IMG/VR virus record: IMGVR_UViG_3300037340_000055
Span: 1-35,710 of that record
Length of the DNA stretch: 35,710 bases
Reading direction: 5' to 3' (one strand)
From: a virus
The notes beneath the pieces are model-generated. The model was given only the letters and a program-made list of their open reading frames with translations, was not told where the DNA came from and did not search any database. Position 1 is the stretch's first letter; each line of letters opens with the position of its first letter. Below, in pieces: positions 3,298 to 35,561 of the stretch. The position numbers were made by a program, and so were the translations under genes.

Positions 3298-4424
3298 TCT
3301 CCCTCCGTTCGGAACGTGGCGTCGTCGCCGCGTGGCTTGATCTGTTTCCAAATGATCGGAGCCGGATCTTTTCCGTCGAGCATAGCGAACAATACCCCAT
3401 GAAATGCGGGCGCCACATTCTGGCGAAGATACTCAGCGAACACGGCTCGATACGCTCTGTCGTTTACTATACTTTCGGTCCAACCACAAGGGGGCGGGCG
3501 ATTCGCGAAAATTTGTCGAGACTCAACGAAAATTTCATTGAACTCTCGATTCAACTTCTCGGACCAAGACGCCAGCCACTTCTGAAAATGCTCGGGCGTG
3601 TGCTCGAAGCCTGCGGTACCCGTGCCGCTCGACAGCAGTTCCCAGACGCTGCGCGCGTTCATGCCTGTGACGATCTTGTGCAGACGCAGATAGTCCGCCA
3701 TCTTCACCTTGACTTTCAATGGGGGCGACGCTGGCCCCCGCCTGTATGTCAGGACATAACCTTCCTCATTTTCAATATTTTTCTTTTTCAGAATTTCAAG
3801 ATTTTCTTTTATACATTCTGTTAGACGAATCCCGTTATATTGGGCGTGTTTCAGGAGCGTAATCCAATTATACTCATAGCCTGAATGTATGCTCACAAGA
3901 CCGATTAATACCAGTCCCTCCCAATCATACTTCACTACGATTCGATTCTCAGGATAGATGATTTCAAATAAAGGTGTCGCCGATCCAGATAAGTCATCTA
4001 CAAAACCCCGCGGGCATTTTTCTTGAATCCACTTCGTAGCCCACTGTGCTTGTGGACTAGTGAAACTGCCCCGAGTCGCGACTCCGAATTGCTCATCATA
4101 TTTCCAATAAACGCCTAAACTACCGTCGTATTTCTTGGTAATCTCAGGAGGCACACTAGGCAGATTCTCTTCCCGCGTCTCCGGTATGTTCGTAGTCTGA
4201 AGATTATGAAACTTTTTGAAGGGCCGCGCGACGATGTTATCGTTGTCGTCCACGATCAGACCCCGACAGAAATCAATGGTGCCGCCCCACTTGTTCTCGA
4301 ACTGGGCGTGAGGAGTATAGTTGAATATTCGTAATGGGAGCGAGGGATGGCGCTGAATGCCGACGAATCGGTCCTGTACCAACTGTTCCAGCTCCTTGAT
4401 GTTCAACAGGGATTCCAGTTTCAT
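3294..4424 (-). CDS. RNA ligase, T4 Rnl1-like (376 aa)
   Basis: ATP-dependent RNA ligase that would join 5'-phosphate and 3'-OH RNA ends, for example after anticodon nuclease cleavage of tRNA. Nucleotidyltransferase motifs are all visible: motif I KYDGS with nucleophile Lys98, preceded by CRGLIVD and ARPFKKFHN as in Rnl1; motif Ia-like TRGSF (about 117-121); motif III LFEIIYPENR (152-161); motif IV EEGYV (220-224); motif V KVKVK (237-241). The C-terminal domain (about 250-376) is the family-specific part. Starts at ATG overlapping the upstream stop. The 3750-4160 stretch is visibly AT-richer than its surroundings. Works with the kinase/phosphatase 650 bases upstream. Confidence 0.9.
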   Translation of the reverse strand: MKLESLLNIKELEQLVQDRFVGIQRHPSLPLRIFNYTPHAQFENKWGGTIDFCRGLIVDDNDNIVARPFKKFHNLQTTNIPETREENLPSVPPEITKKYDGSLGVYWKYDEQFGVATRGSFTSPQAQWATKWIQEKCPRGFVDDLSGSATPLFEIIYPENRIVVKYDWEGLVLIGLVSIHSGYEYNWITLLKHAQYNGIRLTECIKENLEILKKKNIENEEGYVLTYRRGPASPPLKVKVKMADYLRLHKIVTGMNARSVWELLSSGTGTAGFEHTPEHFQKWLASWSEKLNREFNEIFVESRQIFANRPPPCGWTESIVNDRAYRAVFAEYLRQNVAPAFHGVLFAMLDGKDPAPIIWKQIKPRGDDATFRTEGE

Positions 4425-4684
4425 AGTTCCTCGCCGTCATCACCGATTTTTGCCAACTGAAGCCTCAGACGATGCGCGCGCGTCTCGGATTCCGCAAAAT
4501 CTGCGATCTCACGAAAACAGCCCTCGTCGAAAATCGAAGTTGTTGTTTCACATACGTACTTTCGCCATGGCGCGTACCAGTATACGTCGCCCAACTTCGG
4601 GCCACCGGCTGTAGCCTCTACAACCCAACGCTTGGTCTTGCCGCTGGGGCTCGTGCCGTTCTCGGTGAATTTGATGTAGCTCAT
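4421..4684 (-). CDS. hypothetical protein (87 aa)
   Basis: ATG start with AAAGGACATC upstream; stop overlaps the RNA ligase start (ATGA). N-terminal half looks like a small beta domain (SYIKFTENG, KTKRWVVEA, LGDVYWYAPWRKYVCE) and the C-terminal half like a charged helix. Position directly before the RNA ligase suggests translational coupling, but no functional link is visible. Confidence 0.6.
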   Translation of the reverse strand: MSYIKFTENGTSPSGKTKRWVVEATAGGPKLGDVYWYAPWRKYVCETTTSIFDEGCFREIADFAESETRAHRLRLQLAKIGDDGEEL

Positions 4685-4711
4685 TTGATGTCCTTTCCGC
4701 CCGTGAAATCC

Positions 4712-4816
4712 TTAGTTTTCCCAAAGAACAGCCATCGCCAACAACGCTATAGCAAGGAACGGATGTCCGGTGAAAAACACCGCCAGCGCGATAATGAACA
4801 AACAAAAACTCATCAT
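4712..4816 (-). CDS. tiny membrane protein (34 aa)
   Basis: Begins Met-Met (4816) behind GGGAGGG, overlapping the preceding stop as ATGA. Nearly the whole protein is hydrophobic: a first segment (FCLFIIALAVFF), a Thr-Gly-His-Pro turn, and a second segment (LAIALLAMAVLW). That reads as a hairpin of two short membrane helices. No family recognised. Confidence 0.55.
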   Translation of the reverse strand: MMSFCLFIIALAVFFTGHPFLAIALLAMAVLWEN

Positions 4817-5073
4817 GGCTTGAACCCTCCCTTGAACGCCACCCAAATCGTGACGAACGGTATGAAGTTGATGCAAAGCCTTTTCTGCATGGTCGAATAA
4901 TGGAAACCCACCCAGCAACTACCCGCGCGCACTAGCAGACCCACGGTTGTCTTATGCACGCGCTTGGCTTCGAGGGCCAGAGACTCCGTAGTCCACGGCG
5001 GATCGGGATGGAAGATGCCAGCCATAATGTCGCGACTGACGCGCTGACAAAGATCGTTTTCATAAGTTGACAT
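4813..5073 (-). CDS. hypothetical protein (86 aa)
   Basis: ATG at 5071-5073 with GGAGAT upstream, sharing one base with the kinase stop (TAATG). Begins with a charged helix (STYENDLCQRVSRDIMAG), contains a TTVGLLVRAGSCWVG hydrophobic stretch and ends aromatic and hydrophobic. No domain recognised. Confidence 0.6.
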   Translation of the reverse strand: MSTYENDLCQRVSRDIMAGIFHPDPPWTTESLALEAKRVHKTTVGLLVRAGSCWVGFHYSTMQKRLCINFIPFVTIWVAFKGGFKP

Positions 5074-5960
5074 TAAAAATCTCCGTCCGCTACTTGATAG
5101 CACGTCAGGCCGTTCTTGCGCCACATCGCGACAACACGGTCGCGGTCGTCGATTGTGAACGCAACGCGATCTCGGGGCAGCAGGTTCAGGATGTCTTGCT
5201 TCACGAGCGTGTCGTCCCTACGATCTCCCGCGTTACGCATGAAGATGTGATGATAGGGCACGTTGTTCTTCGCAAGCCACTCCACCGTGCTGAACGCCGA
5301 CGACCCCGCGTCTCTGCCGGACACGATGACAACCACGTGGGTTTCGTACAGGCCCCGCACCCAGTCCACGACCACCGAGAAAGGGGGATCGGCCAGAATC
5401 AAATCGTCGCGGTAGAAATAAGCCCAATCGACTTTCCCATTCTCCTTCGGTTTGCGCCGATGACCTGTGTCGGACAAGGTGCCATCAACGTCCACGATCA
5501 CAATCTTCTTGGCGGGGTCGAACTTGATCATGCCGTTCGCCAGCGCCATGCGCTCGATGACCACGCGACCAACCTGTGTGCCACCCTGATTATACTTCCC
5601 TACACGCAGTGCATCCCGTCTCACGCACTCGTCCACAGGCACGTCGAAGAGTTTCATCTCGACTGTCATGCCGAATCCCTCGGCAAACTCGGTCCAGTAG
5701 CGGATATGCCCAGCATGAAGATTAGTGTTGTCGATTAGAAGATTGTATCCGTCCTCAACAGCCTCACGCGCGGCGAAATATGCGCGCTCGATCACGCGCT
5801 TCTCGTTGGCCTTTGAGAATTTATAGTTGGGGGACTCGTGGCGAATGGCGTCCCACGACACGCACGCCCACTTGTGAGGCTCCTTCTCCATCAGGTCGCG
5901 GGCGTACGTACTCTTCCCACTCGCCGGTAGACCACTCAGTATTCGCATGATTCCAGACAT
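5073..5960 (-). CDS. polynucleotide 5'-kinase / 3'-phosphatase, T4 PseT-like (295 aa)
   Basis: Two-domain RNA/DNA end-healing enzyme. N-terminal kinase: P-loop GLPASGKST (10-18), WDAIR and LIDNTN as in T4 Pnkp. C-terminal HAD-type phosphatase: DVDGTL (157-162), VIVSGRD, and a terminal DDRD motif. It removes 3' phosphate and phosphorylates 5'-OH ends, producing the substrate of the RNA ligase encoded at 3294-4424. The chosen ATG (5958-5960) follows AAAGGAGGGCC; a promoter lies at 5983-6011. Length matches T4 Pnkp (301 aa). Confidence 0.93.
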   Translation of the reverse strand: MSGIMRILSGLPASGKSTYARDLMEKEPHKWACVSWDAIRHESPNYKFSKANEKRVIERAYFAAREAVEDGYNLLIDNTNLHAGHIRYWTEFAEGFGMTVEMKLFDVPVDECVRRDALRVGKYNQGGTQVGRVVIERMALANGMIKFDPAKKIVIVDVDGTLSDTGHRRKPKENGKVDWAYFYRDDLILADPPFSVVVDWVRGLYETHVVVIVSGRDAGSSAFSTVEWLAKNNVPYHHIFMRNAGDRRDDTLVKQDILNLLPRDRVAFTIDDRDRVVAMWRKNGLTCYQVADGDF

Positions 5961-11718: not shown

Positions 11719-12928
11719 CGTCGCCCTCTTCCTCTGGTGTTTCGTCGGCGAACAGGTCGTCCAGTGTCTGATCTGCCGTTTGAATGAAATTCTGGTCCCG
11801 GTACATCTTATCTTCCTTCACGAACGCCTGGAAGTAAGGATCGCCCGTATCGTCGTGCGGGTATCGCACTCCGAAAGTGTTGTCCCAAGTATTCGTCTTC
11901 CACGCGTTGACGATTGCCTGGATCTGGCGACCGGCCACGCGTCCCGCTACCGCTGCGCTCTCTTTGGTGACGAACGAGGCATTGAACTGTACGCGGCATC
12001 GAGTGACGGCTGACGCTGGAACTTGGCAGGCGTTCTGAGCCAGCCACATTTCTTTGCGCGCTGTCGCGGCCTTGGTGGTGTCGAGTTTTCCGGCTGCGTT
12101 GCGGCCTTGGGCCTTTTCCATTTCTTCCAGCAGAAATTTTCCCGCCAGTACCCACCACATGTCGCCGTCGTCTTCGGATGCCAGCACAACCTCGGCGCCA
12201 GCCTTATACGCTCCGGCGTCCACCAGCAGCGTCACGGTACGGCCCTTCCCCAACTTGGTGCTGGCCTTCTTGAACCAAAGAAAAGCCACGTCCCGAATAT
12301 CTGAGAGCCAGCTGTACCTTCGAAGTTGCATGTCGAATCTCGACATACCCTGAGACTCATGGAAGTCCTTCGCCCCCGTCTTGATGTCCACAATCAGGGG
12401 ACGTAGTATACCGTACTCCGGCTTCCATGTCAAGGAGGGAAGCAGAGGATGATGGGGCTCCACGTAGCACACGATATCCAGCTTCCCGGCGTCCTCGATC
12501 TCACCGTAGTTGGGATCTCCCGGGTAAACTTCCTTGGCGTACTCCCTTTGGAACACGCTCTGGGCCCCCATGGGGATAGGGAGACTGGGCTGCTTCATGA
12601 TGTAAAGCCTCATCATGTCGATGCCGCAACGGTTCAGGTTCTCCCAGTCCTTTTCGGTCTTGGAGAATTTCAGATCCTTCTGCTCTTTGTGCGCGGCCCA
12701 CTCGGCGACGAAAGTTTCGATACCTCGCGCGCCTCCGTTTTCATGGTAGTACTGTATGGCTGTCTCTAACGCCCTACCAAACTTAAAAGCGGCTTTGTTG
12801 TCTTTCTCTTTCCACCCCTCCACGTATTTAAGATAGTACTTATATTGACATTGCTCCCAAATTAGGCCAGCACTGTAGCTATGCTTTCGATGAGCAACGC
12901 CTCGTTGATTTACATATAAAACGGCCAT
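11711..12928 (-). CDS. PD-(D/E)XK nuclease, RecB/Cas4-like (405 aa)
   Basis: Exonuclease-type PD-(D/E)XK fold (PDDEXK_1 group). The N-terminal SAGLIWEQCQYKYYLKY matches the RecB-nuclease 'S...l..C...y.y.Y' helix, GRALE (51-55) the metal/helix residue, GKLDIVC the first catalytic Asp (D151), LIVDIKTGAK the D-x-K pair (D181, K183), and QLRRYSWL the Q-x3-Y motif. C-terminal part is acidic (ETPEEEGDDE). Likely resects DNA ends for the recombination genes upstream. ATG follows AGGAGGCGATA, sharing one base with the preceding stop. A consensus promoter sits inside the gene. Confidence 0.85.
   Translation of the reverse strand: MAVLYVNQRGVAHRKHSYSAGLIWEQCQYKYYLKYVEGWKEKDNKAAFKFGRALETAIQYYHENGGARGIETFVAEWAAHKEQKDLKFSKTEKDWENLNRCGIDMMRLYIMKQPSLPIPMGAQSVFQREYAKEVYPGDPNYGEIEDAGKLDIVCYVEPHHPLLPSLTWKPEYGILRPLIVDIKTGAKDFHESQGMSRFDMQLRRYSWLSDIRDVAFLWFKKASTKLGKGRTVTLLVDAGAYKAGAEVVLASEDDGDMWWVLAGKFLLEEMEKAQGRNAAGKLDTTKAATARKEMWLAQNACQVPASAVTRCRVQFNASFVTKESAAVAGRVAGRQIQAIVNAWKTNTWDNTFGVRYPHDDTGDPYFQAFVKEDKMYRDQNFIQTADQTLDDLFADETPEEEGDDE
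12405..12433 (-). promoter_or_regulatory. consensus sigma70 promoter inside the nuclease gene
   Basis: Minus-strand TTGACA (12428-12433), exactly 17 bp, TATACT (12405-12410), entirely within codons of the PD-(D/E)XK gene. It would give a transcript starting near 12398 that covers the gene's 3' two thirds and the small genes, including the HTH gene, downstream. Confidence 0.65.
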
Positions 12929-13410: not shown

Positions 13411-13669
13411 TTTCGTCGTCATTTTCGTCGCCGTCCCAAATGAAATCGTCGTCATCGTCCTCTTCGAGGACGTCTTCTGCATCTTCGAAATCGTCGCTGT
13501 CCTCGCCAAACATCATCTCGTCGAGACGCCTGAGAACTACACCCTCTTCGTCGATCTCCTGAGGGTCGCGCGAGACGCAAGTCTTGCAGGTGTTCTGCTC
13601 GTACTCGTAATACTCTTCGAAGTCATCCTGCGTTTTGATTGTGGCGCAAACATCGCAAAAGTGGATCAT
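13400..13669 (-). CDS. small zinc-ribbon protein with acidic tail (89 aa)
   Basis: ATG overlaps the UvrD stop (ATGA) behind GGAGGAG. F-C-D-V-C near residues 4-8 and C-K-T-C near 28-31 form a zinc ribbon; the last 30 residues are almost only Asp and Glu with a few hydrophobics (ending DDENED). Acidic tails of this kind occur in SSB tails and DNA mimics. No family recognised. Confidence 0.65.
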   Translation of the reverse strand: MIHFCDVCATIKTQDDFEEYYEYEQNTCKTCVSRDPQEIDEEGVVLRRLDEMMFGEDSDDFEDAEDVLEEDDDDDFIWDGDENDDENED

Positions 13670-16110
13670 AACTCCTCCGAATTGGAAAGATTCTGAATCT
13701 GATCCTTGAAGTTCTCCAAAAACATGCTGTAGTGGTTCGAGTAACTGATGTGCAAGAACTTCGCGGCTCTCGTACATGCGACATAGAATATCCGGCGCTC
13801 TTCACCGGTCTCGCCTTCTTTATGGGGCATGCGGCCTTGCTCCGCGCCGATGACGAACACGTTATCCCACTCCCGGCCCTTGGCTTGATGCACTGTGCTG
13901 AGTGTCAGGCCCTTCGCGCCCTTGCGCCCGTGAGTCTTCTTGCGCAGGTAGTCCAAGAACTCCGCGATGGTGCCGCCCTTCAACCCCGCGGACTCGACGA
14001 CCTTGTTCAGGTTCTCAATTGGGTTGGAGTCCTTGGTCGCGCTGTGCTTGTAGACGTCCAGCATTCGGTGTTTCTCAATCAGACCGGCCAAGCACGCGGC
14101 TGCGGGTTTGTTGCCCGGCTCATCCTTGGCGTACGTCAGCAGCTTCTTGACTTCGTTCTGTTCCCAGTAATCTTTCTTGCCCAAAATCTTGTACTTGATG
14201 CTGCGCATCGTACAGATGCGATGATAGATGAAAAGTTGGCGATTGGTGCGCGCCAAAATCGCAGTGTTCTCGGGGTCGGTGATCTGCGCCAGAACCCAAT
14301 ATGCTTCCTCGTGATCGTCGGAATACTTCTTGAAGACGGGCCCGATGCCCTCTTCGTTGTCTGTCATCATTCGTGACGCGATGCCGTTGTCCACCGGCAG
14401 GATAGCCTTGAAGAATTCCACCAGTCTCTTCGTGCTATTGCCTACGCAAATACCGTTAGCAAAATAATTATGATCTATATCAACATCTAAAGAATACACA
14501 ATACCATTAAATTGCGTTCGCTTGATGAGAGATATTTTCTCTCCTGTCAACTTATCTCGGGTTGGCACCAACATTAAATCCGAAATTACATTGGCTGCCG
14601 CCGTTTTATTATAACCATTAACCAAATGGAAAGACAGTTTTCCTTCTTTTCGTTCAGGAGATATAAGAGGTTTTTCAAATAGAAGATTGAATTCTCTTAA
14701 TAGTAAAACGCCTCTATTTGTATTATCGTAGGAAAATACCTTCTTAATTTCGACTTCTGTCATCTTCCCATCTCTATCTAAGCCTTCTGGAACGAATGTT
14801 GTTTGGGCAACCCCGTATTTAAAAGAAAGAAATTGCTCTTCAATATACGCCTCTCTAGCGGTATTTACAACCTTTAAAATCCATGTTTTATCTGGCTTCT
14901 GAATATGAATACGATGCCAAAAACGAATTACCTTTCCTTTAGGACCCTGAACAACGAGTGCACTTTTTCCTATCCTAAAGCCAAATCCCTCCTTCCACAT
15001 AAGATACACAACATGTTTTCCTAATGCCGCCTCTTTATCAATGCGAACCAATAAATCATGATTAGGGGTCACGGAGACTGCTTTTCCTGTCTCCGTAATC
15101 ACTTCGAGCATCGGGCCTCGGTATTTATATGTTGTTTTTTCTGTTTTTCGCCCTTTAATATGCACATACCAATCTCTCTTGTCCCAAGATACTGCTCTAT
15201 TCTTTATATTAACGTTTTCAATCGGCACTTCATTGATTATCGCGGTTTGGCCCCTCGCTCGCCTATTTCCTACCCAACACTCAATATTCGTCCCCGCTGG
15301 GTGGCATCTATAATTTTTTCCGATGTAGAGCGTCTGGGCTCCCGGAAACTTCTGTGCGAAGTTTATAAGGTTGCCGCTCTGCGCCGACCGCCACTCATAA
15401 ATCAACTGGTTCTCGTCGCCCACGACAAAGATGTTACCGTTGAACAGGAGCTGAAGAATTCTGAACTGCACCACGTCTGTGTCTTGGCATTCGTCCACTG
15501 CGATGTAGGGTCGTTGCCAGCGCGCACGGACTTCGGCGTTCGTCTCCAACAGGGTTTTCGTCTCCTGCATCACGCTGTCGAAGTCCAGCCATCCCTGCTG
15601 ACGGCATTCTTGCTCATAGTCGGAATAAGCCAAGGCGTAAAAGTATTCGATGCCGTTGTTGCGGGATCTACCCATGGCCTCGTCGGGGTCGATGTTCTGG
15701 CGCTTCCAGTCCGACAAATATTCCTTCAGCGCGTTGAAGTTTCGAATCGCGGGATAACGCTTCACAAGATCGAACAGCAGCTTGTAATCCTCCATGCCCA
15801 CCGGAATCACTGTATCGCATAGAGGAAAAGACAAATTGCTTCGCTCCTGCCGTAGCAGTTCCATGCAGAAACTGTGGAAAGTGCGGAACACCTTGTCGGC
15901 GTCCAGCAGGCCAACCTTCTTCACCATAGCCTCAGCAGCGGCGCTAGTGAACGAAAGGTTCAGGATATCTCGGGACGGTATACCGCGCATCAGCATAGAC
16001 AGATGGCGTTGAGCAAGAGTTGTGGTCTTGCCCGTGCCCGGCCCGGAGATGGCTACGTGGACGCCATCGACGGCATCCACGCAGGCCTGCTGTTCTGGGT
16101 TGAGAATCAT
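13666..16110 (-). CDS. UvrD/Rep-like superfamily 1 helicase interrupted by an intein (814 aa precursor)
   Basis: SF1A 3'-5' helicase. Motif I GPGTGKTT (23-30), Ia-like LSFTSAAA, motif II VDECQD (205-210), motif III GDENQLIYEWR (231-241), motif IV split by the intein between NYR (266-268) and STKR (559-562), motif V STVHQAKGREWDNV, motif VI VACTRA. Without the 290-residue intein the mature protein would be 524 aa, a normal size for compact phage UvrD-like helicases. ATG shares a base with the upstream stop (TAATG). Likely works with polymerase and PD-(D/E)XK nuclease in replication or recombination. Confidence 0.93.
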   Translation of the reverse strand: MILNPEQQACVDAVDGVHVAISGPGTGKTTTLAQRHLSMLMRGIPSRDILNLSFTSAAAEAMVKKVGLLDADKVFRTFHSFCMELLRQERSNLSFPLCDTVIPVGMEDYKLLFDLVKRYPAIRNFNALKEYLSDWKRQNIDPDEAMGRSRNNGIEYFYALAYSDYEQECRQQGWLDFDSVMQETKTLLETNAEVRARWQRPYIAVDECQDTDVVQFRILQLLFNGNIFVVGDENQLIYEWRSAQSGNLINFAQKFPGAQTLYIGKNYRCHPAGTNIECWVGNRRARGQTAIINEVPIENVNIKNRAVSWDKRDWYVHIKGRKTEKTTYKYRGPMLEVITETGKAVSVTPNHDLLVRIDKEAALGKHVVYLMWKEGFGFRIGKSALVVQGPKGKVIRFWHRIHIQKPDKTWILKVVNTAREAYIEEQFLSFKYGVAQTTFVPEGLDRDGKMTEVEIKKVFSYDNTNRGVLLLREFNLLFEKPLISPERKEGKLSFHLVNGYNKTAAANVISDLMLVPTRDKLTGEKISLIKRTQFNGIVYSLDVDIDHNYFANGICVGNSTKRLVEFFKAILPVDNGIASRMMTDNEEGIGPVFKKYSDDHEEAYWVLAQITDPENTAILARTNRQLFIYHRICTMRSIKYKILGKKDYWEQNEVKKLLTYAKDEPGNKPAAACLAGLIEKHRMLDVYKHSATKDSNPIENLNKVVESAGLKGGTIAEFLDYLRKKTHGRKGAKGLTLSTVHQAKGREWDNVFVIGAEQGRMPHKEGETGEERRIFYVACTRAAKFLHISYSNHYSMFLENFKDQIQNLSNSEEL
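14437..15306 (-). other. intein coding segment (290 aa) within the helicase gene
   Basis: Residues 269-558 of the precursor. Starts with Cys269 (CHPAGTNIECW, block A), has block B TPNHDLL (348-354 region) with the conserved T-x2-H, block F DIDHNYFANGICVGN, and ends in Asn558 followed by Ser559 as +1 nucleophile, directly inside helicase motif IV. The penultimate residue is Gly instead of the usual His. No LAGLIDADG motif is visible; the central region contains an AYIEEQFLSFKYGV segment of unknown role. The DNA is clearly AT-richer than the flanking exteins. Confidence 0.9.
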
Positions 16111-17396: not shown

Positions 17397-19553
17397 TTAT
17401 TTGTGATAATACGTGCTTTCAAAACCGTCGCCCTTCAGAGGGAGGCCGGGAGCCCAGTAAATCGGCTGGGACATCTCCCACTCCATCTCCCTCACGCCGG
17501 GCGCAAAAGGATCTTTGCTTTTCTCCGTCAGACCTTCGTCATGCACATGCCCGCAAATCGGCAGCCCTCGTTCGTTCTCGAACTTCAGGAGCACATGCGC
17601 CAACACGTCGCGCGCGATGCCCTGCACGATATTTTCGAAAATCTTGCCGCCGTGCGACGTGACCACCCCCCAGCCATGAGTCTTCTGGTCCTGACTCGCA
17701 TAAACTAACGTGGGTTTATACACATCCTTCATGATGGGCTTGCCGTCTTTATCTACCTCGCCCGTCTTTTGTTGCCACGGCATCTTGGTGCTCTCGATGC
17801 GCGCGTCCATGTAGTGCAAATAGCGACCGCTGGGCAACTGGATTCTGAGAATAGGGTGCCGTCCCCGAATCGGAGTCTTATCGATCTTGATGCAGTTGTT
17901 GGGTCCGACGAAGCGCACGGTGTTCGCGCCCTTGAGCACGTCCGATACAGCTTCTTCCAGAATGTACCACATCTGGACGATTTCCTTGTAGGATTCCCGG
18001 AACACGTCCACAATAGCCTGAGCCTCTTCCAGCGTCAGGACAACGCCGTAGCCTTCGGCGTATTCCTTGAGAGTCGCGGCCCCCATCCTGTAGATGCAGC
18101 CCAGCATGCCCGGCTTTGCGTTCTGCCTGTGCTTTTTGGCGATTGCCTGTTTCAGTTTATCTAACTTGTTGTGGAGATCGAAATCTAAAGTCTCGTAGGG
18201 AATCTGGGTCGTCTTCATCGCGAAATCAAGATAGGGGTCTCGGCCCTTGAGGAAAACGTCTATCAGGGCTTGGCAACCCGACACCCACGCACCCACGCGT
18301 GTTTCAATTGCGTTCTCATCTGCCACCGCGAACTCATTGCCTTCTTGGGCTTCGAACGCCGTCCGCAAGAGAGATTTGATTACCAATAGCACTGCGCCGG
18401 GATCGCCCCTCTCAGGAGTTGGTTTCCCAAACGTCTTCTCGATGGCTTCGTAATCCTCGGCCATCACCATGGCGCGCGCCTTATTGACGTTGTCCTCGTC
18501 CTCGAAACGCACATCGGGTCGAGCCATGTTATGAAATTGGAGAGCGTTGCTCGACCATCGTCCGCAGCGCGCACTACCCATGTACACGAAGAGGTTTCGC
18601 AGTCTCTTATCGGGAGACAGTTGCCGAAGGATCGTCGCGAACTTCGTATAGGACGTACTGGACGCTGCCTTCTTGTTGAGCAGAACTTCGCGACAGAGGG
18701 GCGTAAGATTGGGGTTGTTCTTGAGCTGGGACTCGACACACTCGACTTCGAGGGATTCTTCCCTATAGCCTCGCGCCGTTACCCACGGCAACAGTTGGTC
18801 GCCGGAGTTTGCGTTCGCCAATCCTGTCAATCTATTCTGTTCCGCAATGGCTGCTTTCTTGGCACGCTCGGCGATCTTGAGCGCCTTAGTCACAAACTCT
18901 TCGTTTACAGGCATGCCGCGTTCGTTGACCGTCTGATCGAATACCCAGATGGCGCGCTCGTTTGGCGGTAGGGGCATGGTGCCTAGAAGAGTCAGGCGAC
19001 GCATGACTTCGCGCTCAGCCACCACATCCTGACGGCAGTACTCGACAAACTTAACCCACTCCTCGGTATCAGTCATGGCGTCACGGAAGTAGTACTCGAC
19101 GGGCTCACCCCTTTTCTTCTTGCGCTTCGAGGGCTTGCAGAAAATATTAATGAGGCGTTTGCCGTCCGCTTCTTTGGCGTAATCGCGCGGCAGCCCCAGA
19201 ATGATGGAGACTTCTTCCAACGCTGCGGGCAGGGACAGATAACGCCCCGAGGCTTGGGGGTCTTGGAAGCGAGAGATGGGAAGGCCGATGCCAAGCACGT
19301 GGCGGAAGATGTAACGCTCGAACGCACTATTGAACGCCACGATGTCTACACTGGAGTCGTCCAGAGCCCGGCGCAGTTCGTCGGGCATGGGCTCGTCGCA
19401 GAACCAGATCTGAACCTCGCCCTCATCGATGGCCCAACCCAGCATCAGGGCTTCCGTTGTCGGGTGGGTGGCGTAGTTCCGCAAGCCGATGGACTTCTGT
19501 CCCCTCAGCTCCCCGTATGAACGAGTCTCAAAGTCGATGTAAAGGATTTTCAC
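17397..19553 (-). CDS. family A DNA polymerase with 3'-5' exonuclease (718 aa)
   Basis: Replicative polymerase. N-terminal DEDD exonuclease: YIDFETRS (D7, E9) and YCRQDV (Asp176). Polymerase domain: motif A VADENAIETRV (410-420), motif B R476...K480...Y488-x2-G491, motif C HDE (671-673). SARCGRWSS (327-335) matches the thumb/palm 'G-R-x-S' element. Motif A has Glu-Asn where many relatives have Tyr/Ser, but the metal Asp and the I-E pair remain. No 5'-3' exonuclease domain, as usual in phages. GTG start after AAAGGGGCAG. No interruption seen. Confidence 0.95.
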   Translation of the reverse strand: MKILYIDFETRSYGELRGQKSIGLRNYATHPTTEALMLGWAIDEGEVQIWFCDEPMPDELRRALDDSSVDIVAFNSAFERYIFRHVLGIGLPISRFQDPQASGRYLSLPAALEEVSIILGLPRDYAKEADGKRLINIFCKPSKRKKKRGEPVEYYFRDAMTDTEEWVKFVEYCRQDVVAEREVMRRLTLLGTMPLPPNERAIWVFDQTVNERGMPVNEEFVTKALKIAERAKKAAIAEQNRLTGLANANSGDQLLPWVTARGYREESLEVECVESQLKNNPNLTPLCREVLLNKKAASSTSYTKFATILRQLSPDKRLRNLFVYMGSARCGRWSSNALQFHNMARPDVRFEDEDNVNKARAMVMAEDYEAIEKTFGKPTPERGDPGAVLLVIKSLLRTAFEAQEGNEFAVADENAIETRVGAWVSGCQALIDVFLKGRDPYLDFAMKTTQIPYETLDFDLHNKLDKLKQAIAKKHRQNAKPGMLGCIYRMGAATLKEYAEGYGVVLTLEEAQAIVDVFRESYKEIVQMWYILEEAVSDVLKGANTVRFVGPNNCIKIDKTPIRGRHPILRIQLPSGRYLHYMDARIESTKMPWQQKTGEVDKDGKPIMKDVYKPTLVYASQDQKTHGWGVVTSHGGKIFENIVQGIARDVLAHVLLKFENERGLPICGHVHDEGLTEKSKDPFAPGVREMEWEMSQPIYWAPGLPLKGDGFESTYYHK

Positions 19554-19563
19554 TACTGCCCCT

Positions 19564-19968
19564 TTAAGAAGGCTTAAAATTACTTAGACGTTGGGGTGGG
19601 TGCTCTTGTTTATCTGCCCAATCTGCCCATTCTTTCATCCAACGATGAAGGACACCCCAAAGATTGTCTTCCTCCACAAGTTTAAAATTCGGAAAATGCT
19701 CTAAACGAGATATGGTTCCTTCATCAGGATCTCCCCAAACTATAAACACTGTACGGTTATCCAATACTCTAGCGATACTCGTCCTTTTCTGCCCCACTGT
19801 TAAAGTTTCGCCCGTACGCTTTCCTTCCATACCTAAAAAGTGCCCGTTAATTTCTGTCTCTTGATCCTGATCGGCGCAAGAAATCCCTCTCGGCGCCCAC
19901 GGGCCATAGGGTTCCAAGAATTTATCCCAATCCCAGCGAGTAGCGATTGGGTTTCTCAATTTTGCCAC
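19564..19968 (-). CDS. hypothetical protein of the ABC-GNAT cassette (134 aa)
   Basis: GTG start (19966-19968) behind GGAGACAC, overlapping the preceding gene by 13 bases. Compact alpha/beta-like protein: LEPYGPWAPRGISC, a beta stretch RTVFIVWGDPDEGT, and a Trp-rich helix WGVLHRWMKEWADWADK. No motif recognised. Last gene of the cassette before the polymerase. Confidence 0.6.
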   Translation of the reverse strand: MAKLRNPIATRWDWDKFLEPYGPWAPRGISCADQDQETEINGHFLGMEGKRTGETLTVGQKRTSIARVLDNRTVFIVWGDPDEGTISRLEHFPNFKLVEEDNLWGVLHRWMKEWADWADKQEHPPQRLSNFKPS

Positions 19969-20471
19969 GTCAGTGTCTCCAGTTGTTTTTTAGATAAAAA
20001 CAGCGTAACACGATACCTGTCCTCGACGGGCTTATATTCCTTCTTGATGTCCGAATCATAGACGGGACGCCACGGGGCCCACCCTCCCCAAATATAAGAG
20101 ACGCCGCCCGCTATTCGCGCTAAGGTTTTCAACAAACCTTCTGCTATTTTCGCCTGCCGATCTTTGCAGTCAGCGCCGAAACAACTACAATGCCAGTCTT
20201 TTGCATGCGAATGATTTTGCAGTTTCACGTTCGGAGTTAGTTGACGAACGCGTTGGTGACTAAAACGAAGTTTCTCATTGCATAGCTTATTAAAGCTGGT
20301 ATACCCCATGAAAGATTGTTTGTTTTGACGCGCTTGAGAAAATCTCACTTTAATTTCGTGCAACAAAACCACTACGCTCTCCTCTGAATTTTGAAAAATA
20401 GGGGAATACCTAACACACTCTGCAATGAGTTCTGCATCACTGGCTAAGGCGACGTTAAATGGTTTTTTCAT
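19956..20471 (-). CDS. hypothetical protein with HTH-like segment (171 aa)
   Basis: ATG start overlapping the ABC-GNAT stop by 17 bases. Residues about 53-80 (GYTSFNKLCNEKLRFSHQRVRQL) resemble the 'w.sFe.yc.erl.fs...a..l' HTH-like helix pair of phage and plasmid DNA-binding proteins. A CSCFGADC cluster with nearby His (HSHAKDWHC) could bind zinc. The end (YRVTLFLSKKQLETL) resembles an arm of a DNA-binding protein. Function not known. Confidence 0.6.
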   Translation of the reverse strand: MKKPFNVALASDAELIAECVRYSPIFQNSEESVVVLLHEIKVRFSQARQNKQSFMGYTSFNKLCNEKLRFSHQRVRQLTPNVKLQNHSHAKDWHCSCFGADCKDRQAKIAEGLLKTLARIAGGVSYIWGGWAPWRPVYDSDIKKEYKPVEDRYRVTLFLSKKQLETLTWQN

Positions 20472-21840
20472 CCTTCTCCTTTTGGAAAAGTTTGTGTGCT
20501 GGGCCTACGTATTTTGCCATCTTGCGCGGGCGAATGCGCCAAAGAGCCTGCGCTGCTAGCACGTCGTTCTTTCGAAAACAGTCTTCGAGAGACTTATACG
20601 GCGAACCCTCGGTACCGGGATACACTCCCCCGGGATGGGTATCTCGGCCTAACTTTGCCGCGTTCGCCACAACGAGAGCCCGATACTTTGGATTTCGGAC
20701 TATCAAATTTTGACACTCTTTTTTACTTGCCCATTGGCCTACAGTCAAGGGAATAGTTCGAAGATAATCGGGCGCAGCTATGTCTACATCAGCCACACGG
20801 CGCATTCCCGCTCGCTCAAAAACTGGATTAAAACGAGCCATAGCTGCTACAGTATCCGCGTCCGGGTGCATCCCCAAATAGTAGCGGATCAGTTGCTGTC
20901 CGACTCCGCAGCCTCGATATGTGGGGTGAACTACTACACGAGCAATTCTATACCCCCCGGTACGAAGTTGAGTGCCGACAACCCAACCGATGATTTCACC
21001 ATTCAATCGTGCCGAAATGTACTCTTGCGGCCCCCCGACATATTTCCCCTTATAGTGTATCTCGCCCAGCCGATTTGCTCTATATTCATCTTTGCCCGCT
21101 GAAACCGCTTTATCCGGATGGGCGCAGGAGCAGCCTACTCCTTTCTTGCAGTTGCGACAAGTCCCGCCGATAGTAGTTTTTGCGCTGGGCGTCAACTCCT
21201 GTGTCACGGCAATCTGTGAGGCAAAAGGGTTAAAGACTTTCGGCGCAGGGAAATGAGTTGTCCAATCTGAAGGAAACGCCTTTCCTCTAACGATCAAATC
21301 AGGCTGTAAATACAAATCCAAATCATCGTGCGCTGTGGCCGCAATAAGACTAATTTGCTCTCTGCGAAGCATACGTTGAAAACTATAGGCTAACGCCTTG
21401 GCTGTTTTCCTGTCTAGGGTTGAAAGGAACTCATCAACAACCAAAGTTTTCTTGCCACGGCATAACCAAAAATACATCCGGGCCCTCGCTTGTTGGCTGT
21501 CAGATAGCTGACGATAGTACAAAACGAACAACGAAGCATCATTCAACCCCACCGAGTTAAGAAGACGAAGCGCGCCCTCATCTGAATCGGCCCACTTGTG
21601 CAGAGGCTTATTAGGGTCAGTGAACGGTGTCAACTTTCCTAACATTTTCAAAAGCGTAGATTTCCCGCAGCCCGACTCTCCCGTAATCAATGTGATTTTG
21701 GGGAGGGGATCGGGAAGAACAACGTCCACAATTCGATTCACCCATCCGGGCCCTATACCGAAGGCCTCTGCAACCAAGAGAGATGTATTCTCTGGTTGAA
21801 CCTCGAACGACTTTTCATGGTGTTTGTTTTGTGTAAACAT
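20455..21840 (-). CDS. ABC-type ATPase fused to GNAT acetyltransferase, COG2401-like (461 aa)
   Basis: N-terminal ABC ATPase: Walker A GESGCGKS (54-61), unusual signature LSDSQ (112-116) in place of LSGGQ, Walker B LVVDE (133-137), STLDR D-loop and ATAHDDL H-loop (His171). Then a Cys/His cluster CRNC-x5-C-x-C-x-H (228-241), and a GNAT domain with acetyl-CoA loop YRGCGVG (308-314) and the ARFNPVFERAGM segment. The order matches COG2401 ('ABC-type ATPase fused to a predicted acetyltransferase'). No membrane segments, so not a transporter. ATG at 21838-21840 chosen; the frame stays open to a GTG at 21927 overlapping the upstream gene. Substrate unknown. Confidence 0.85.
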   Translation of the reverse strand: MFTQNKHHEKSFEVQPENTSLLVAEAFGIGPGWVNRIVDVVLPDPLPKITLITGESGCGKSTLLKMLGKLTPFTDPNKPLHKWADSDEGALRLLNSVGLNDASLFVLYYRQLSDSQQARARMYFWLCRGKKTLVVDEFLSTLDRKTAKALAYSFQRMLRREQISLIAATAHDDLDLYLQPDLIVRGKAFPSDWTTHFPAPKVFNPFASQIAVTQELTPSAKTTIGGTCRNCKKGVGCSCAHPDKAVSAGKDEYRANRLGEIHYKGKYVGGPQEYISARLNGEIIGWVVGTQLRTGGYRIARVVVHPTYRGCGVGQQLIRYYLGMHPDADTVAAMARFNPVFERAGMRRVADVDIAAPDYLRTIPLTVGQWASKKECQNLIVRNPKYRALVVANAAKLGRDTHPGGVYPGTEGSPYKSLEDCFRKNDVLAAQALWRIRPRKMAKYVGPAHKLFQKEKDEKTI

Positions 21841-22396
21841 TGACTGGGAAACCTGCTTTCCGAAGCCCCGTTGAAAAAGTAACTCGGGAGATTTCAATTC
21901 TTTTTCCGTTCTCTGATAAACGCGCACCTTCGGGAATCGATGTAGAATCTTGTGGTGCGGGATAGCTCAACTCCGTGCTTAATCCGTACATCGGCTCACC
22001 ACCAAATTTACCGCTGTCCATCGGGCGCACGTCCGCGGGCATTGGGATCATCAGCTCTTTGAACCTCTCGATAACCGCATCGTGCACCTCGGCAGGCCAT
22101 GAAAACCGCAATTTAACATCTTCTCGAACGGACTCCAAATACACTAACAGCACATCATCGATGGTTTCCGGTTGAAGTTTCGAAATCTTATTCTTGCCGT
22201 TTTCGATTCGTTGCTGTCTTCGCTCTTCATCTATTTTCGAGACTACTATCTCTCGAATCCCTAAAATCTCAGCATCCGGGACTGCCGGTTTTATCGCTTT
22301 GAAACCCTCTCTGGCCTTCTCTGCGTTGTCCGCCGTCACCGTGACTATTGGACGTTCTTTCTTAAAGTACGTGTAGGTAATTTCGAAAACTGACAT
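21815..22396 (-). CDS. hypothetical protein, first gene of the ABC-GNAT cassette (193 aa)
   Basis: ATG behind a perfect AAGGAGGTG, 26 bases after the -10 of a consensus promoter. The opening FEITYTYFKKERPIVTVTADNAEKAREGFKAI looks like a small ferredoxin-like alpha/beta domain; the middle is charged and helical; the end is polar and basic. It overlaps the ABC-GNAT gene by 26 bases or more. No family name recognised. Confidence 0.65.
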   Translation of the reverse strand: MSVFEITYTYFKKERPIVTVTADNAEKAREGFKAIKPAVPDAEILGIREIVVSKIDEERRQQRIENGKNKISKLQPETIDDVLLVYLESVREDVKLRFSWPAEVHDAVIERFKELMIPMPADVRPMDSGKFGGEPMYGLSTELSYPAPQDSTSIPEGARLSENGKRIEISRVTFSTGLRKAGFPVNVYTKQTP

Positions 22397-22421
22397 TTGG
22401 CACCTCCTTGATTACAGGACA

Positions 22422-22450
22422 AGTATAGAGTAAATGGGTGCGCTTGTCAA
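22422..22450 (-). promoter_or_regulatory. consensus sigma70 promoter of the ABC-GNAT cassette
   Basis: Minus-strand TTGACA (22445-22450), exactly 17 bp, TATACT (22422-22427), in the 56-base gap after the primase-polymerase gene. The -35 box lies right behind the primase stop codon. Predicted transcript begins just before the 193-aa gene's ribosome site. Confidence 0.85.
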
Positions 22451-22452
22451 GC

Positions 22453-24525
22453 TTAATCTTCATCTTCTATATCTTGTAGCAAAATAACGCGCTTGGCGTC
22501 ACCCTTTTTGCCTGTGCCCACTTCCTTGATGATGCGGTTCTTGACCAATCCCTGATACGCTTGAGTCCACAGCGTGGTGCCGCCTCGCTCGGGGTGCATC
22601 GCACGTGTAACGTCGCGCATCGACATCTCGCCGCCGCTGCGCTTCAAAAGAAGGCGCAGTTCCATTTGCACAGCGCCCTCTTTCGTTGTTGCTTCATAAG
22701 TCTGTACGTATTTCTTGACGGCTTTCTCATACTCGACAAGTGCAAGAGCGCGCTCGATGCAGTCGCAGTCGATCTCATCCCGGCCCAAGTCAATGGCAAA
22801 GTACAATGCGAATTTCTCGGCTCGAATTTCTTCGCGGTTCTCGACGCCCTTTGCCATAGCTTCCTGTAGTGGGGTAAGGTTCTCGATCTTGAATAAGCTC
22901 TGTTTGATGGCTGCATCCACAAGTTTACGCGTCAGCAGCGCGCCATCCTGAGTAGCCACGTGAATCTGCGGCGACAGAGCCTTGAACTTCTCGGGTTGAT
23001 AAAGAAAGAAGAACCTCTCATCAAGTCCCGATGACCGGCCCGACAGCTTCGACCAGTGCGTGGTAAAATTCTTATCGGTGCAGCACGCAATCAGTGACAC
23101 GCAATAACTGCCGGGATCGAATGAGAAGCTTTCTTTCTTGGACTTGATCAGGTTCTGAAACTTGCCCGACTCGTACAGAGCCAACAGCCGCGACGTGAGT
23201 GTGCTGCCGTCGATGCCTGCCTTATTGGTCAGCGTGCTCAGTTCGTCGTAGAACAGAATCCCATTGCGGCACTTTAGGCGCGACATCTCGATGCCCAATC
23301 CCTCGGGCGAACCAATCTCCCACACTAGAGCCTTGCTGTTAGCGTTCTCCATCGAGGTGTTGCCGTGCTCGACCATGCCTGCGAACTTGAAGTATTCAAT
23401 TGCGCTCTCGACCGAACTGGATTTGATGATCTTTCCTTTTCGACCGATCAGGACCATGAATAGTGAAGGGATCAGTTGCTTGTGCTCCACTCGAACCTTG
23501 TTGGCGACATAATTCAACAACAGGGCCATGGCGGGCATGAACATGTATTCTTCGTACCGACTGTTGACGTCGCAAAACGGCTTCACGAGTCCTTCGTAGA
23601 TCGAGGTGCCAAGCATCACCCACTCGGGGAATATCGGATAAGGGGGTAGCACCAGTTCGGGCAGTTCCTCGACACCCTCGTCCGTAAGTGAAACGAGTGG
23701 CGCGGCGGGTGCCACGCTGTACGCCGTGCTACTCAAAGGTTTGCCACCGAATAGAACGGTTTCCTTCAGGAGGCTCCCCAAAGGATACCGACCGTACATT
23801 CCGCGCACATCCTGAAGAACTTTGTCGTCGTCGATTGGTTCTTCGCAATTCTCATGGGCCCATGCCATCACCGCAGCTTCGGCTGCTTCCTGAGGGACGG
23901 CTTTAGCGATGAATGTTCCTATGATGGAGACGAGATGACTGTTGATCTGGCCGTGCGGGATCTTGGGATCTCCCGGCTGCCGCGTGCCAATCTTGGCTTT
24001 CTCGATGCGCTGGGATTTTATCCAATCGATCAGGAACAGTGGGGCCTCGATGATGGGGGCTGTGCAAACAACTTCGTAGGGGTCTCCAGAGATTGGATGG
24101 ATCGAGCCCGCTGCGACAACATACTCCCGATCCACGCGAACGGAAAAGTCCCCGTTCTTGACGAAACCTTGGGCCACGTTACCTAGAGCGATGGATGCGG
24201 CGTTCTGTTTCCAGTAATAGTGTCCGCGCCCAGGACGGCTGCGCACGCGGTATGTGAGGGGGATTTTTTGGCCGGTCTCAGCTTCGATACGGCCCGGAAC
24301 GGAAGGATCATCGATCTCGAAGAACCATACGCCATCAAGCGAGGCTTGGGCCACTGCGGCGCAGTTGGCCTCGGGTGACTCGTCGTTCCATTGCGCGAGA
24401 ATTACAGAATCCGTTGTGGCGAGGGAGGGCCAATCGTCATCTCTGGCGATTTTCGTACGAGGTTTGAGTCGGATGACAGGAGCGCCCTTCGCGACAGTTG
24501 CCTGCGCGCGTTCAAGGAAGTTCAT
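22453..24525 (-). CDS. primase-polymerase with C-terminal DUF3987-like ATPase (690 aa)
   Basis: N-terminal archaeo-eukaryotic primase (Prim-Pol) domain: catalytic acidic FFEIDDP (E70, D72), RSRPGRGHYYW (95-105; the His motif), and VDREYVVAAGSIHP (131-144) with the third acidic residue. Middle linker of about 100 residues. Then an ATPase module with a degenerate P-loop G-R-K-G-x3-K-S-S (about 355-366) and GILFYDELST as Walker B, typical of phage DUF3987-like helicase/ATPases. A winged-helix-like C-terminus (GGEMSMRDVTRAMHPERGGT) ends the protein. Provides primers and probably helicase action for the family A polymerase. Confidence 0.88.
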   Translation of the reverse strand: MNFLERAQATVAKGAPVIRLKPRTKIARDDDWPSLATTDSVILAQWNDESPEANCAAVAQASLDGVWFFEIDDPSVPGRIEAETGQKIPLTYRVRSRPGRGHYYWKQNAASIALGNVAQGFVKNGDFSVRVDREYVVAAGSIHPISGDPYEVVCTAPIIEAPLFLIDWIKSQRIEKAKIGTRQPGDPKIPHGQINSHLVSIIGTFIAKAVPQEAAEAAVMAWAHENCEEPIDDDKVLQDVRGMYGRYPLGSLLKETVLFGGKPLSSTAYSVAPAAPLVSLTDEGVEELPELVLPPYPIFPEWVMLGTSIYEGLVKPFCDVNSRYEEYMFMPAMALLLNYVANKVRVEHKQLIPSLFMVLIGRKGKIIKSSSVESAIEYFKFAGMVEHGNTSMENANSKALVWEIGSPEGLGIEMSRLKCRNGILFYDELSTLTNKAGIDGSTLTSRLLALYESGKFQNLIKSKKESFSFDPGSYCVSLIACCTDKNFTTHWSKLSGRSSGLDERFFFLYQPEKFKALSPQIHVATQDGALLTRKLVDAAIKQSLFKIENLTPLQEAMAKGVENREEIRAEKFALYFAIDLGRDEIDCDCIERALALVEYEKAVKKYVQTYEATTKEGAVQMELRLLLKRSGGEMSMRDVTRAMHPERGGTTLWTQAYQGLVKNRIIKEVGTGKKGDAKRVILLQDIEDED

Positions 24526-34610: not shown

Positions 34611-35509
34611 TAGTCCTCCTCACCTATGTCCGATGCGTCACGCGTGCCCAGCCACGTTGGGAAGCGGGGTTTGTCCTTGCTTCCCAGTGGAAAGTATTGG
34701 TATTTGATTATCATACCCATCATCATACCACGTTTGGCCCAAATGTCAAGTCTTTCTTTGTCGTCGTAACCCGTACCTATTTTGAACTCGACGCCTTTAT
34801 ACGTGCCGTTGATGCCGCGCACGATTAGCGCACCAAGATCGCCCCGGCCCGTCAGGCCCTCCATCGAGGTGCTGCGCTCGGTGCGGCCCACTGCGTTCTT
34901 CTTGGCCTCGTTACCATTGTGCGTGCGCTCCTCGAAGCCGATGATGCGGGCCTCGGCGTCCTCGAAGCGTTTGATCTTCAGAAGAAAACCTTCTTTCTCT
35001 GTACTCCGACCTTGTTTGTACGGCCCGTCAAGGCTGCGCACCATCGCGCCCTCGTGCCCGCCGTCAACCGCCTTCTCTTCGAAGGCATTCAGGTCTTCGA
35101 CACAATCGCAGTGAACATGGGGTAGGGGCTTGACCGCTGTATTCTTATAGGAATAGTTACGAACGAAACTCAATCGATCACTGAAGCCGCCTTTGATTTC
35201 GAAGTTGTCGAACACCCAATAACGCAAGCCGGTGATGTCGTTGCCGTCGCCCATGACTGCGGAGACTGTCTTGCGGTACGCGTCTGACGCCGTAGGATCA
35301 CCCAGAATCAGTTCGCCATCCAAACCTTCGGGCAAACCCGCGAGCAATTCCTGCACCTTGTTGTTCGGAATCAGCTTAAGCGTTCGGCTCATTAGCTTGC
35401 CGCCGATCACAAGACACCGCACACCGTCTAACTTCAAGGACGCGAGCACGGGAAATTTCAGCTTCGTCACATCTGTACACTTGCCCGCTAGCATGGGTTT
35501 GAACGTCAC
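34610..35509 (-). CDS. ATP-dependent DNA ligase (299 aa)
   Basis: GTG start behind AGGAGGCAATA, first gene after the promoter at 35532-35561. Nucleotidyltransferase motif I KLDGVR (26-31, nucleophile Lys26), motif III-like GLDGELIL, motif IV EGAMVRS, motif V LLKIKRF. A C-terminal OB-like half ends in FPTWLGTRDASDIGEED. Length and motif order fit T7-type phage DNA ligases that seal nicks during replication. A promoter-like sequence lies in its 3' part (34722-34749). Confidence 0.92.
   Translation of the reverse strand: MTFKPMLAGKCTDVTKLKFPVLASLKLDGVRCLVIGGKLMSRTLKLIPNNKVQELLAGLPEGLDGELILGDPTASDAYRKTVSAVMGDGNDITGLRYWVFDNFEIKGGFSDRLSFVRNYSYKNTAVKPLPHVHCDCVEDLNAFEEKAVDGGHEGAMVRSLDGPYKQGRSTEKEGFLLKIKRFEDAEARIIGFEERTHNGNEAKKNAVGRTERSTSMEGLTGRGDLGALIVRGINGTYKGVEFKIGTGYDDKERLDIWAKRGMMMGMIIKYQYFPLGSKDKPRFPTWLGTRDASDIGEED
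34722..34749 (-). promoter_or_regulatory. sigma70-type promoter in the ligase 3' end
   Basis: Minus-strand TTGACA (34744-34749), 16-bp spacer, TATGAT (34722-34727), within ligase codons. It points at the string of small genes beginning at 34610. Confidence 0.5.
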
Positions 35510-35531: not shown

Positions 35532-35561
35532 AGTATACCGCATTAGCTTTCCGAATGTCAA
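35532..35561 (-). promoter_or_regulatory. sigma70-type promoter of the DNA ligase gene
   Basis: Minus-strand TTGACA (35556-35561), 18-bp spacer, TATACT (35532-35537), in the 60-base gap between the right-edge gene and the ligase. Confidence 0.75.

Follow-up and report, generated by a model that had tools for sequence, protein, structure and literature searches.

One point of comparison for the locus is Mom of phage Mu, a known DNA-base modifier (PMC7824862). Mom and the central protein of the locus are both phage enzymes of the GNAT superfamily, but Mom lacks the ABC ATPase that our protein carries. Iyer and Aravind predicted that a paired GNAT and ABC ATPase would make an undefined acyl modification of a DNA base (Iyer 2013, as restated in PMC7824862); an acyl-base role in DNA modification is therefore not a new idea. 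In the phage family phrog_11143, a soluble ABC ATPase is followed by a GNAT domain, as in the protein described here. SSU5-like phage-plasmids, in which ParB genes are present, carry separate ABC (phrog_293) and GNAT (phrog_886) genes, whereas our locus has one fused gene. Both domains also occur on one chain in cellular proteins of thermophiles (Thermomicrobium, Thermus, Thermococcales, and Desulfurococcales), which are related in sequence to our protein and which we take to be the COG2401-like family.

Our locus is a four-gene cassette in a viral stretch of 35,710 nucleotides, hereafter the window. It lies within the replication module, with the primase on one side and the polymerase on the other. 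Its limits come from two near relatives, L009 and L010; its central protein was compared with homologues at L109 (54% identical) and L115 (39%). The features are listed below.

17397–19553, minus strand: flanking family A DNA polymerase (Pol A), 82% identical in L009
19565–22439, no strand assigned: exchanged segment, limits from BLASTN against L009 and L010
19564–19968, minus strand: 134-aa protein, no known domain in family searches, no relatives found
19956–20471, minus strand: 171-aa protein, no known domain in family searches, no relatives found
20455–21840, minus strand: ABC-GNAT fusion, 461 aa from the ATG at 21840, start judged from L109 and L115
20806–20841, minus strand: MARFNPVFERAG motif, common to cellular COG2401-like proteins, variant form in phrog_886
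20899–20949, minus strand: GNAT motif A RIARVVVHPTYRGCGVG, putative CoA-binding loop, from Pfam and alignment
21049–21057, minus strand: HYK motif that opens the GNAT domain, with HY invariant among aligned viral relatives
21124–21159, minus strand: Cys cluster CRNCKKGVGCSC in the linker between the ABC and GNAT domains, lacking at L109 and L115
21430–21435, minus strand: Walker B Asp-Glu (VVDEF), from alignment
21493–21507, minus strand: ABC signature LSDSQ, from alignment
21655–21681, minus strand: Walker A GESGCGKST, from the sequence, kept in the relatives' alignment
21815–22396, minus strand: 193-aa protein, no known domain (Pfam, NCBIfam), weak counterpart at L109
22401–22409, minus strand: Shine-Dalgarno sequence AAGGAGGTG of the first cassette gene
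22422–22450, minus strand: sigma70-like promoter TTGACA-17-TATACT, 11/12 by sequence match, directly after the Prim-Pol stop codon
22453–24525, minus strand: flanking Prim-Pol primase, 91% identical in L009

BLASTN homology to L009 and L010, which are 82–91% identical to the window in the flanking polymerase and primase, breaks off at 22440 and restarts at 19564. Exactly between these points, the relatives carry three genes in place of 19565–22439 (5314–7989 in L009): two for MT-A70 adenine methyltransferases and an unknown one. The second gene of this block matches the PHROG DNA methyltransferase family phrog_359. The two cassettes share slot, operon position, and strand, but the relatives carry methyltransferases in place of the ABC-GNAT gene and no gene is common to both. 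In L013, a more distant relative, the two flanking genes abut and the slot is empty. The segment is thus strongly supported as an exchanged block, and the original prediction of an insert between polymerase and primase was borne out by relatives with other content, or nothing, at exactly the same place. Its AT-richer composition was likewise confirmed, with GC3 values of 0.39–0.49 in the cassette versus 0.70 in Pol A and 0.65 in Prim-Pol. The methyltransferase swap counts as one observation, since L009 and L010 look like the same virus, and it is suggestive only, because variable slots can hold unrelated cargo. The MT-A70 fusion of L009 has a ParB-like look in its sequence, at a level of match that is not significant.

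The promoter ahead of the set had been described as perfect; it matches 11 of 12 positions instead. The window has six sites that reach at least 11/12, this one included, all of them on the coding strand, against a mean of 0.33 such sites (maximum 2) in dinucleotide shuffles used as a control. The promoter was not seen in the L009 junction sequence. No RNA families were matched in or near the cassette. A promoter of its own, a divergent base composition, small unrelated companions, and an exchangeable position would also suit a moron, that is, defence or superinfection-exclusion cargo that attacks competing phages or works as a toxin–antitoxin pair. We regard this as very unlikely: the cassette sits in the replication module, with primase and polymerase as its neighbours, and Pfam, NCBIfam, and PHROGs recognised no nuclease or toxin domain in it.

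The longest open reading frame of the central gene runs from a GTG at 21927 to 20455 on the minus strand (490 aa); comparison of start sites with L109 and L115 shortened the protein to 461 aa. As originally predicted, this one protein combines an ABC ATPase (Pfam ABC_tran, E 7.7e-7) bearing an LSDSQ signature with a C-terminal GNAT domain (PF00583, E 1e-8, above its cut-off). It matches phrog_11143 (E 3.2e-29), and its identity with the family members is roughly a quarter to a third over the matched part. The Walker motifs, the HY that opens the GNAT domain, and a C-terminal KY(I/V)G-like motif are common to both, and the window GNAT domain has the HY motif and R-x-x-G-x-G-type loop of the family. 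The signature differs, being LSDSQ in our protein and at L109 and L115, as opposed to LSNGE in phrog_11143 and LSNGE or LSDGQ in other viral relatives. With the SSU5-like proteins it shares HYK and M(S/A)(K/R)(Y/F)N motifs, and the highest ABC-domain identity is 37% (Acinetobacter plasmids). The Cys cluster (C-x2-C-x5-C-x-C) noted earlier is present in the linker, but a conserved zinc-binding or catalytic role for it was rejected because the nearest homologues, L109 and L115, lack it. No ABC transporter membrane domain was found in the four cassette proteins by Pfam or NCBIfam. A single-sequence scan of IMG/VR yielded no close relatives of the whole protein, and relatives were found by profile-type queries alone; the GNAT half gave no tblastn match among 50,697 phage records. 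Whole-record searches for ABC-GNAT or Prim-Pol came back empty and, run with no positive control, carry little weight.

The earlier assignment as COG2401-like holds for sequence but not for domain order. The Thermomicrobium roseum GNAT-ABC protein is 29% identical to ours in the ABC part and 42% in the GNAT core, and a MAR(Y/F)NPxFERAG motif is common to the cellular proteins and the window protein. In all 75 testable cellular proteins, however, Walker A follows the GNAT motif, the reverse of the window protein. The cellular proteins usually carry CxxC pairs ahead of the GNAT motif.

The GNAT model (pLDDT 69) found its best Foldseek matches among small-molecule and protein acetyltransferases. 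Such matches would fit a GNAT that acylates a protein, for example host RNA polymerase, as phiKMV Rac reportedly does, with the ABC domain recruiting or remodelling the target. RNA polymerase is a documented target of phage GNATs (PMC7824862), and the cassette has a strong predicted promoter of its own. Such hits are generic to this fold, however, with a query-normalised TM-score of about 0.3 and no substrate clue, and nucleic acid is the target suggested by the MT-A70 swap and by the ParB and ASCH associations given below. A protein target is therefore improbable in our estimate.

The cassette reading frames overlap their neighbours on the minus strand, and the description of three overlapping companions without recognised domains held up: neither Pfam nor NCBIfam gave a significant match for the 193-, 171-, and 134-aa proteins. 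A helix-turn-helix had been suspected in one of them. No method supports it; the 171-aa protein had no family match, and its single-sequence model was uninformative (mean pLDDT 43). Profile comparisons for a ParB hidden among the three gave probabilities of 0.1–0.4%. No relatives of the companions were found in INPHARED phages, nor of the 193- and 171-aa proteins in the IMG/VR scan. Directly upstream of the L109 ABC-GNAT gene lies a 184-aa counterpart of the 193-aa protein (28% over 89 columns, pairwise E 2e-5). The expected co-occurrence with ABC-GNAT genes in other phages is thus limited to this weak counterpart, and none was detected for the 171- and 134-aa proteins, so the cassette is no conserved four-gene unit. 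At most, the pair of the 193-aa protein and ABC-GNAT forms the conserved part. By analogy with the ParB and ASCH partners found elsewhere, the 193-aa protein may help to find the target.

Among 67 testable loci, 44 have a ParB gene directly upstream of the related viral ABC-GNAT gene, and the same arrangement occurs in Pmp13, Jace, LE4, EastWest, and NHagos. It is absent in Nonlabens P12024S and others; being frequent but not universal, it does not strictly define the phage family. Unlike many phrog_11143 loci, the window gene has no ParB neighbour, and no ASCH domain lies beside it. In a Mu-like phage of Porphyromonas, the ABC-GNAT gene is near the right end, which in Mu is the site of mom. 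Together, the MT-A70 replacement, the ParB partners, the ASCH fusions and neighbours, and this right-end placement lend indirect support to nucleic acid as the target.

We therefore read the cassette as an exchangeable anti-restriction module predicted to protect phage DNA by ATP-dependent nucleobase acylation, with a probability of about 0.5. On nucleic acid, the ABC-GNAT protein would form a dimer by way of its soluble ABC domains, and ATP binding and hydrolysis would hold the duplex or open it and so present a base. An acyl-CoA-type donor would then supply the acyl group that the GNAT domain places on an exocyclic amine of that base, and host nucleases would stop cutting the phage DNA. We infer the DNA substrate, the donor, the base acceptor, the ATP-driven presentation, and the protection from restriction. 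DNA acylation is favoured by the lack of an ABC membrane domain in the four proteins, by the empty site in L013, and by the published prediction of ABC-coupled base acylation by a GNAT, as restated in PMC7824862. The domains agree with the original prediction that nucleic acid or protein is modified with the help of ATP and an acyl donor, and its nucleic acid branch is indirectly backed, but the idea was already in print (PMC7824862). We found neither biochemical nor sequencing evidence of DNA modification for any ABC-GNAT member. Counted against a DNA target are the missing ParB and ASCH neighbours of the window gene, the two companions without relatives, and the mostly thermophilic origin of the cellular relatives, which may act on RNA.

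The same ATP-driven acylation could instead take place on RNA (tRNA, rRNA, or mRNA), where it would shield phage translation or counter host defences that cleave tRNA. TmcA and NAT10, ATPase-GNAT enzymes that acetylate RNA cytidine, offer a precedent. Kinship with them was rejected: our ATPase is of the ABC type and not a RecD-like helicase, and the matches to GNAT_acetyltr_2 (E 0.1) and by phmmer (E 0.08) are at chance level. The cellular relatives, most of which belong to thermophilic archaea, Thermus, or Chloroflexota, are also linked to ASCH, a PUA-like fold known from RNA-metabolism proteins. The phage ParB partners suggest DNA, however, as do the MT-A70 swap and its phrog_359 match, and no RNA family was found at the cassette; we consider an RNA target unlikely.

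Returning to nucleobase acylation, the viral ABC-GNAT and cellular GNAT-ABC proteins may tentatively be placed in one class of ATP-driven nucleobase acyltransferases recruited to their target by ParB, ASCH, or other partners. The phage members would be interchangeable with adenine methyltransferases as genome protection, and those of thermophiles, with ASCH on the same chain or beside it, would modify RNA or DNA. If nucleobase acylation is right, the base chemistry that phages use here is one still to be identified, and it belongs to a family common enough to occur in at least 583 stretches of IMG/VR. A slot that holds methyltransferases or ABC-GNAT in close relatives would open that function to direct testing. 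For the targets of the obscure cellular proteins, the ASCH fusions would then be the first concrete handle. What is new here is the methyltransferase swap at the slot, the domain permutation, and the ASCH domains fused or adjacent to the family.

An ASCH domain accompanies the cellular GNAT-ABC protein in 16 of 67 cases, fused at seven loci and adjacent at nine more. The eight aligned cellular ASCH domains read K-x-x-E-x-R and not the catalytic K-x-x-T-x-R of YqfB, an N4-acetylcytidine amidohydrolase. Since Glu replaces the nucleophile Thr24, the partners were rejected as YqfB-type deacylases and do not point to N4-acetylcytosine hydrolysis. Among phages, ASCH domains lie near the ABC-GNAT gene in L146, L156, L160, and Jace.

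The family-recognised genes of the 35.7 kb virus record all lie on the minus strand and, according to family searches, form a replication and nucleotide-metabolism module. Four overlapping ORFs sit between two of these genes.

17397-19553, minus strand, family A polymerase gene, cassette flank (family searches)
22453-24525, minus strand, Prim-Pol gene, cassette flank (family searches)

The longest ORF codes for ABC-GNAT, a protein with an ABC ATPase domain ahead of a GNAT domain; family searches recognised no domain in the remaining three (193, 171 and 134 aa). GC3 was 0.39–0.49 for the four genes versus 0.65–0.70 for the two flanking genes.

An IMG/VR scan with the window polymerase as query revealed that this position is an exchange slot. 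The near relatives L009 and L010 (polymerase 82% and primase 91% identical) were counted as one virus, since BLAST comparison with the window gives both the same coordinates and the same identities. Their DNA similarity to the window reaches 22440 and starts again at 19564. Between these edges their cassette is another one, consisting of an MT-A70 gene (E 7.5e-13), an unknown protein of 193 aa that is unrelated to the window’s 193-aa protein, and a second MT-A70 protein (E 4.7e-18), which also matched a PHROG DNA-methyltransferase family.

L009 5318-7984, MT-A70 methyltransferase cassette, same slot

The N-terminus of the second L009 cassette protein looks ParB-like (LLDGHNRFKIAEKNG), at a level not significant by Pfam or hhalign. 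In L013 (primase 63% identical), the primase and polymerase genes abut, the stop overlapping the ATG, and in L014 (46%) two small ORFs separate them. The slot therefore has at least four states: the ABC-GNAT cassette, the methyltransferase cassette, two small ORFs, and empty. MT-A70 turned up nowhere else in the window record, and in none of the L013–L015 records. The UvrD-like helicase of the window (13666-16110, minus strand) contains an intein-like insertion, from ...GKNYR|CHPAGT to ...NGICVGN|STK, which is absent in L009; the L013 insertion occupies a different site.

The window protein is a divergent variant of a known viral family, with at least 583 IMG/VR stretches. INPHARED yielded 51 matching records, mostly for the ABC part and with identities of at most 36%; the GNAT half alone matched none. 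Among the closest homologues, all from profile-type IMG/VR scans, are L109 (54% identical in tblastn, covering most of the protein) and L115 (39%). Because both begin near the window ATG at 21840, ABC-GNAT probably starts there and has 461 aa. They keep the LSDSQ signature, which is LSDGQ, LSNGE or LSTGQ in other relatives. The predicted Cys/His cluster is present in the window protein but not conserved, being missing in both homologues. Structure prediction bore out only the GNAT-like core (pLDDT 69). The profile-type scans also gave the viral contigs L110–L113, which carry ABC-GNAT of about 30% identity adjoining a terminase-like gene; the domains are fused in L110, L111 and L113, unlike in L112, where they form two adjacent, overlapping genes (3898-4593 and 4590-5333). 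In PHROG scans, phrog_11143 was the fusion; in SSU5-like phage-plasmids its two parts have genes of their own, phrog_293 and phrog_886. The misleading label ‘ABC transporter ATP-binding subunit’ is attached to phrog_886, which aligned with GNAT domains and had no ABC match.

L016 4868-5758, phrog_886 gene (PHROG)
L017 5244-6128, phrog_886 gene (PHROG)

A genome scan gave 80 cellular loci, mostly from thermophilic archaea, Thermus and Chloroflexota, of a family which we take to be COG2401. GNAT preceded ABC in all 75 loci where both motifs could be placed, whereas ABC comes first in the window and viral proteins; the two versions are therefore mutually permuted. We found no functional test of the viral family.

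The original prediction of an inserted cassette was confirmed, but a conserved four-gene unit was not: the 171- and 134-aa proteins had no counterparts in the relatives searched, and L115 lacks all three companions. Only for the 193-aa protein did a weak counterpart emerge, encoded just upstream of ABC-GNAT in L109 (28% over 89 columns; pairwise E 2e-5).

Other partners recur. A ParB gene lies directly upstream of the related genes in phages Pmp13, Jace, LE4, EastWest and NHagos, and upstream in 44 of the 67 IMG/VR loci with sufficient upstream DNA among the best 80 of at least 583. The window companions showed no ParB resemblance. In five phages, ABC-GNAT is directly followed by a formyltransferase-like gene.

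L006 5975-6592, formyltransferase-like gene
L008 5996-6469, formyltransferase-like gene
L018, L020 and L021, formyltransferase-like genes

Jace has an aspartate decarboxylase gene (L003 5969-6394). Both kinds of enzyme could possibly make the acyl group. ABC-GNAT and formyltransferase are the last annotated genes of a Mu-like Porphyromonas phage, and in Komp_PAO1_1, also Mu-like, the pair follows the tail-fibre assembly gene.

Beside cellular GNAT-ABC genes, ASCH was the most often matched family (5 among 100 proteins). Profile searches found it fused to the GNAT-ABC C-terminus in seven loci (L066, L084, L086, L091, L101, L102 and L103; L091 and L103 confirmed by Pfam). Besides T. roseum, nine more loci have ASCH as a separate gene that adjoins or overlaps GNAT-ABC, and L072 gave one distant match. 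The fusion contigs are bacterial (Chloroflexota/Anaerolineales). Twelve of these genomes have 1–7 ASCH matches each, and chance adjacency therefore seems unlikely. In three phage loci, ASCH lies immediately or closely downstream of ABC-GNAT and convergent with it.

L160 1605-2150, ASCH gene (Pfam)
L156 5038-5448, ASCH gene (Pfam)
L146 5439-5945, minus strand, ASCH gene (Pfam)

In Jace, an ASCH gene lies within about 1.1 kb of ABC-GNAT; all four matches exceed the Pfam cut-off. The window itself had no ASCH match. Eight aligned cellular ASCH domains read K-x-x-E-x-R, whereas the YqfB amidohydrolase has K-x-x-T-x-R with catalytic Thr24 (PMC6972931). Because Glu takes the catalytic position, binding would fit these partners better than hydrolysis.

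The adenine-methyltransferase swap, ParB, ASCH and the Mu-like placement, together with a published prediction for ABC-coupled GNATs (PMC7824862), point by association to ATP-dependent nucleobase acylation of phage DNA as the most likely function, which would let the DNA withstand host nucleases. RNA or protein are possible substrates instead. With the swap slot and the ASCH fusions to work from, the function can be put to the test.

The cassette promoter, predicted to be perfect, is TTGACA-17-TATACT, which matches 11 of 12 positions. The window has six such near-consensus sigma70 sites, this one included, each of them on the coding strand, against an average of 0.33 in shuffles.

22422-22450, minus strand, sigma70 promoter of the cassette
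388-417, 715-743, 12405-12433, 34722-34749 and 35532-35561, minus strand, further near-consensus sigma70 promoters

The -10 box is TATACT in five and TATGAT in one. Once the promoter, the start and the Cys cluster are corrected, the initial observation is real. The cassette promoter is typical of this phage, and it lies inside the exchanged block or at its edge.
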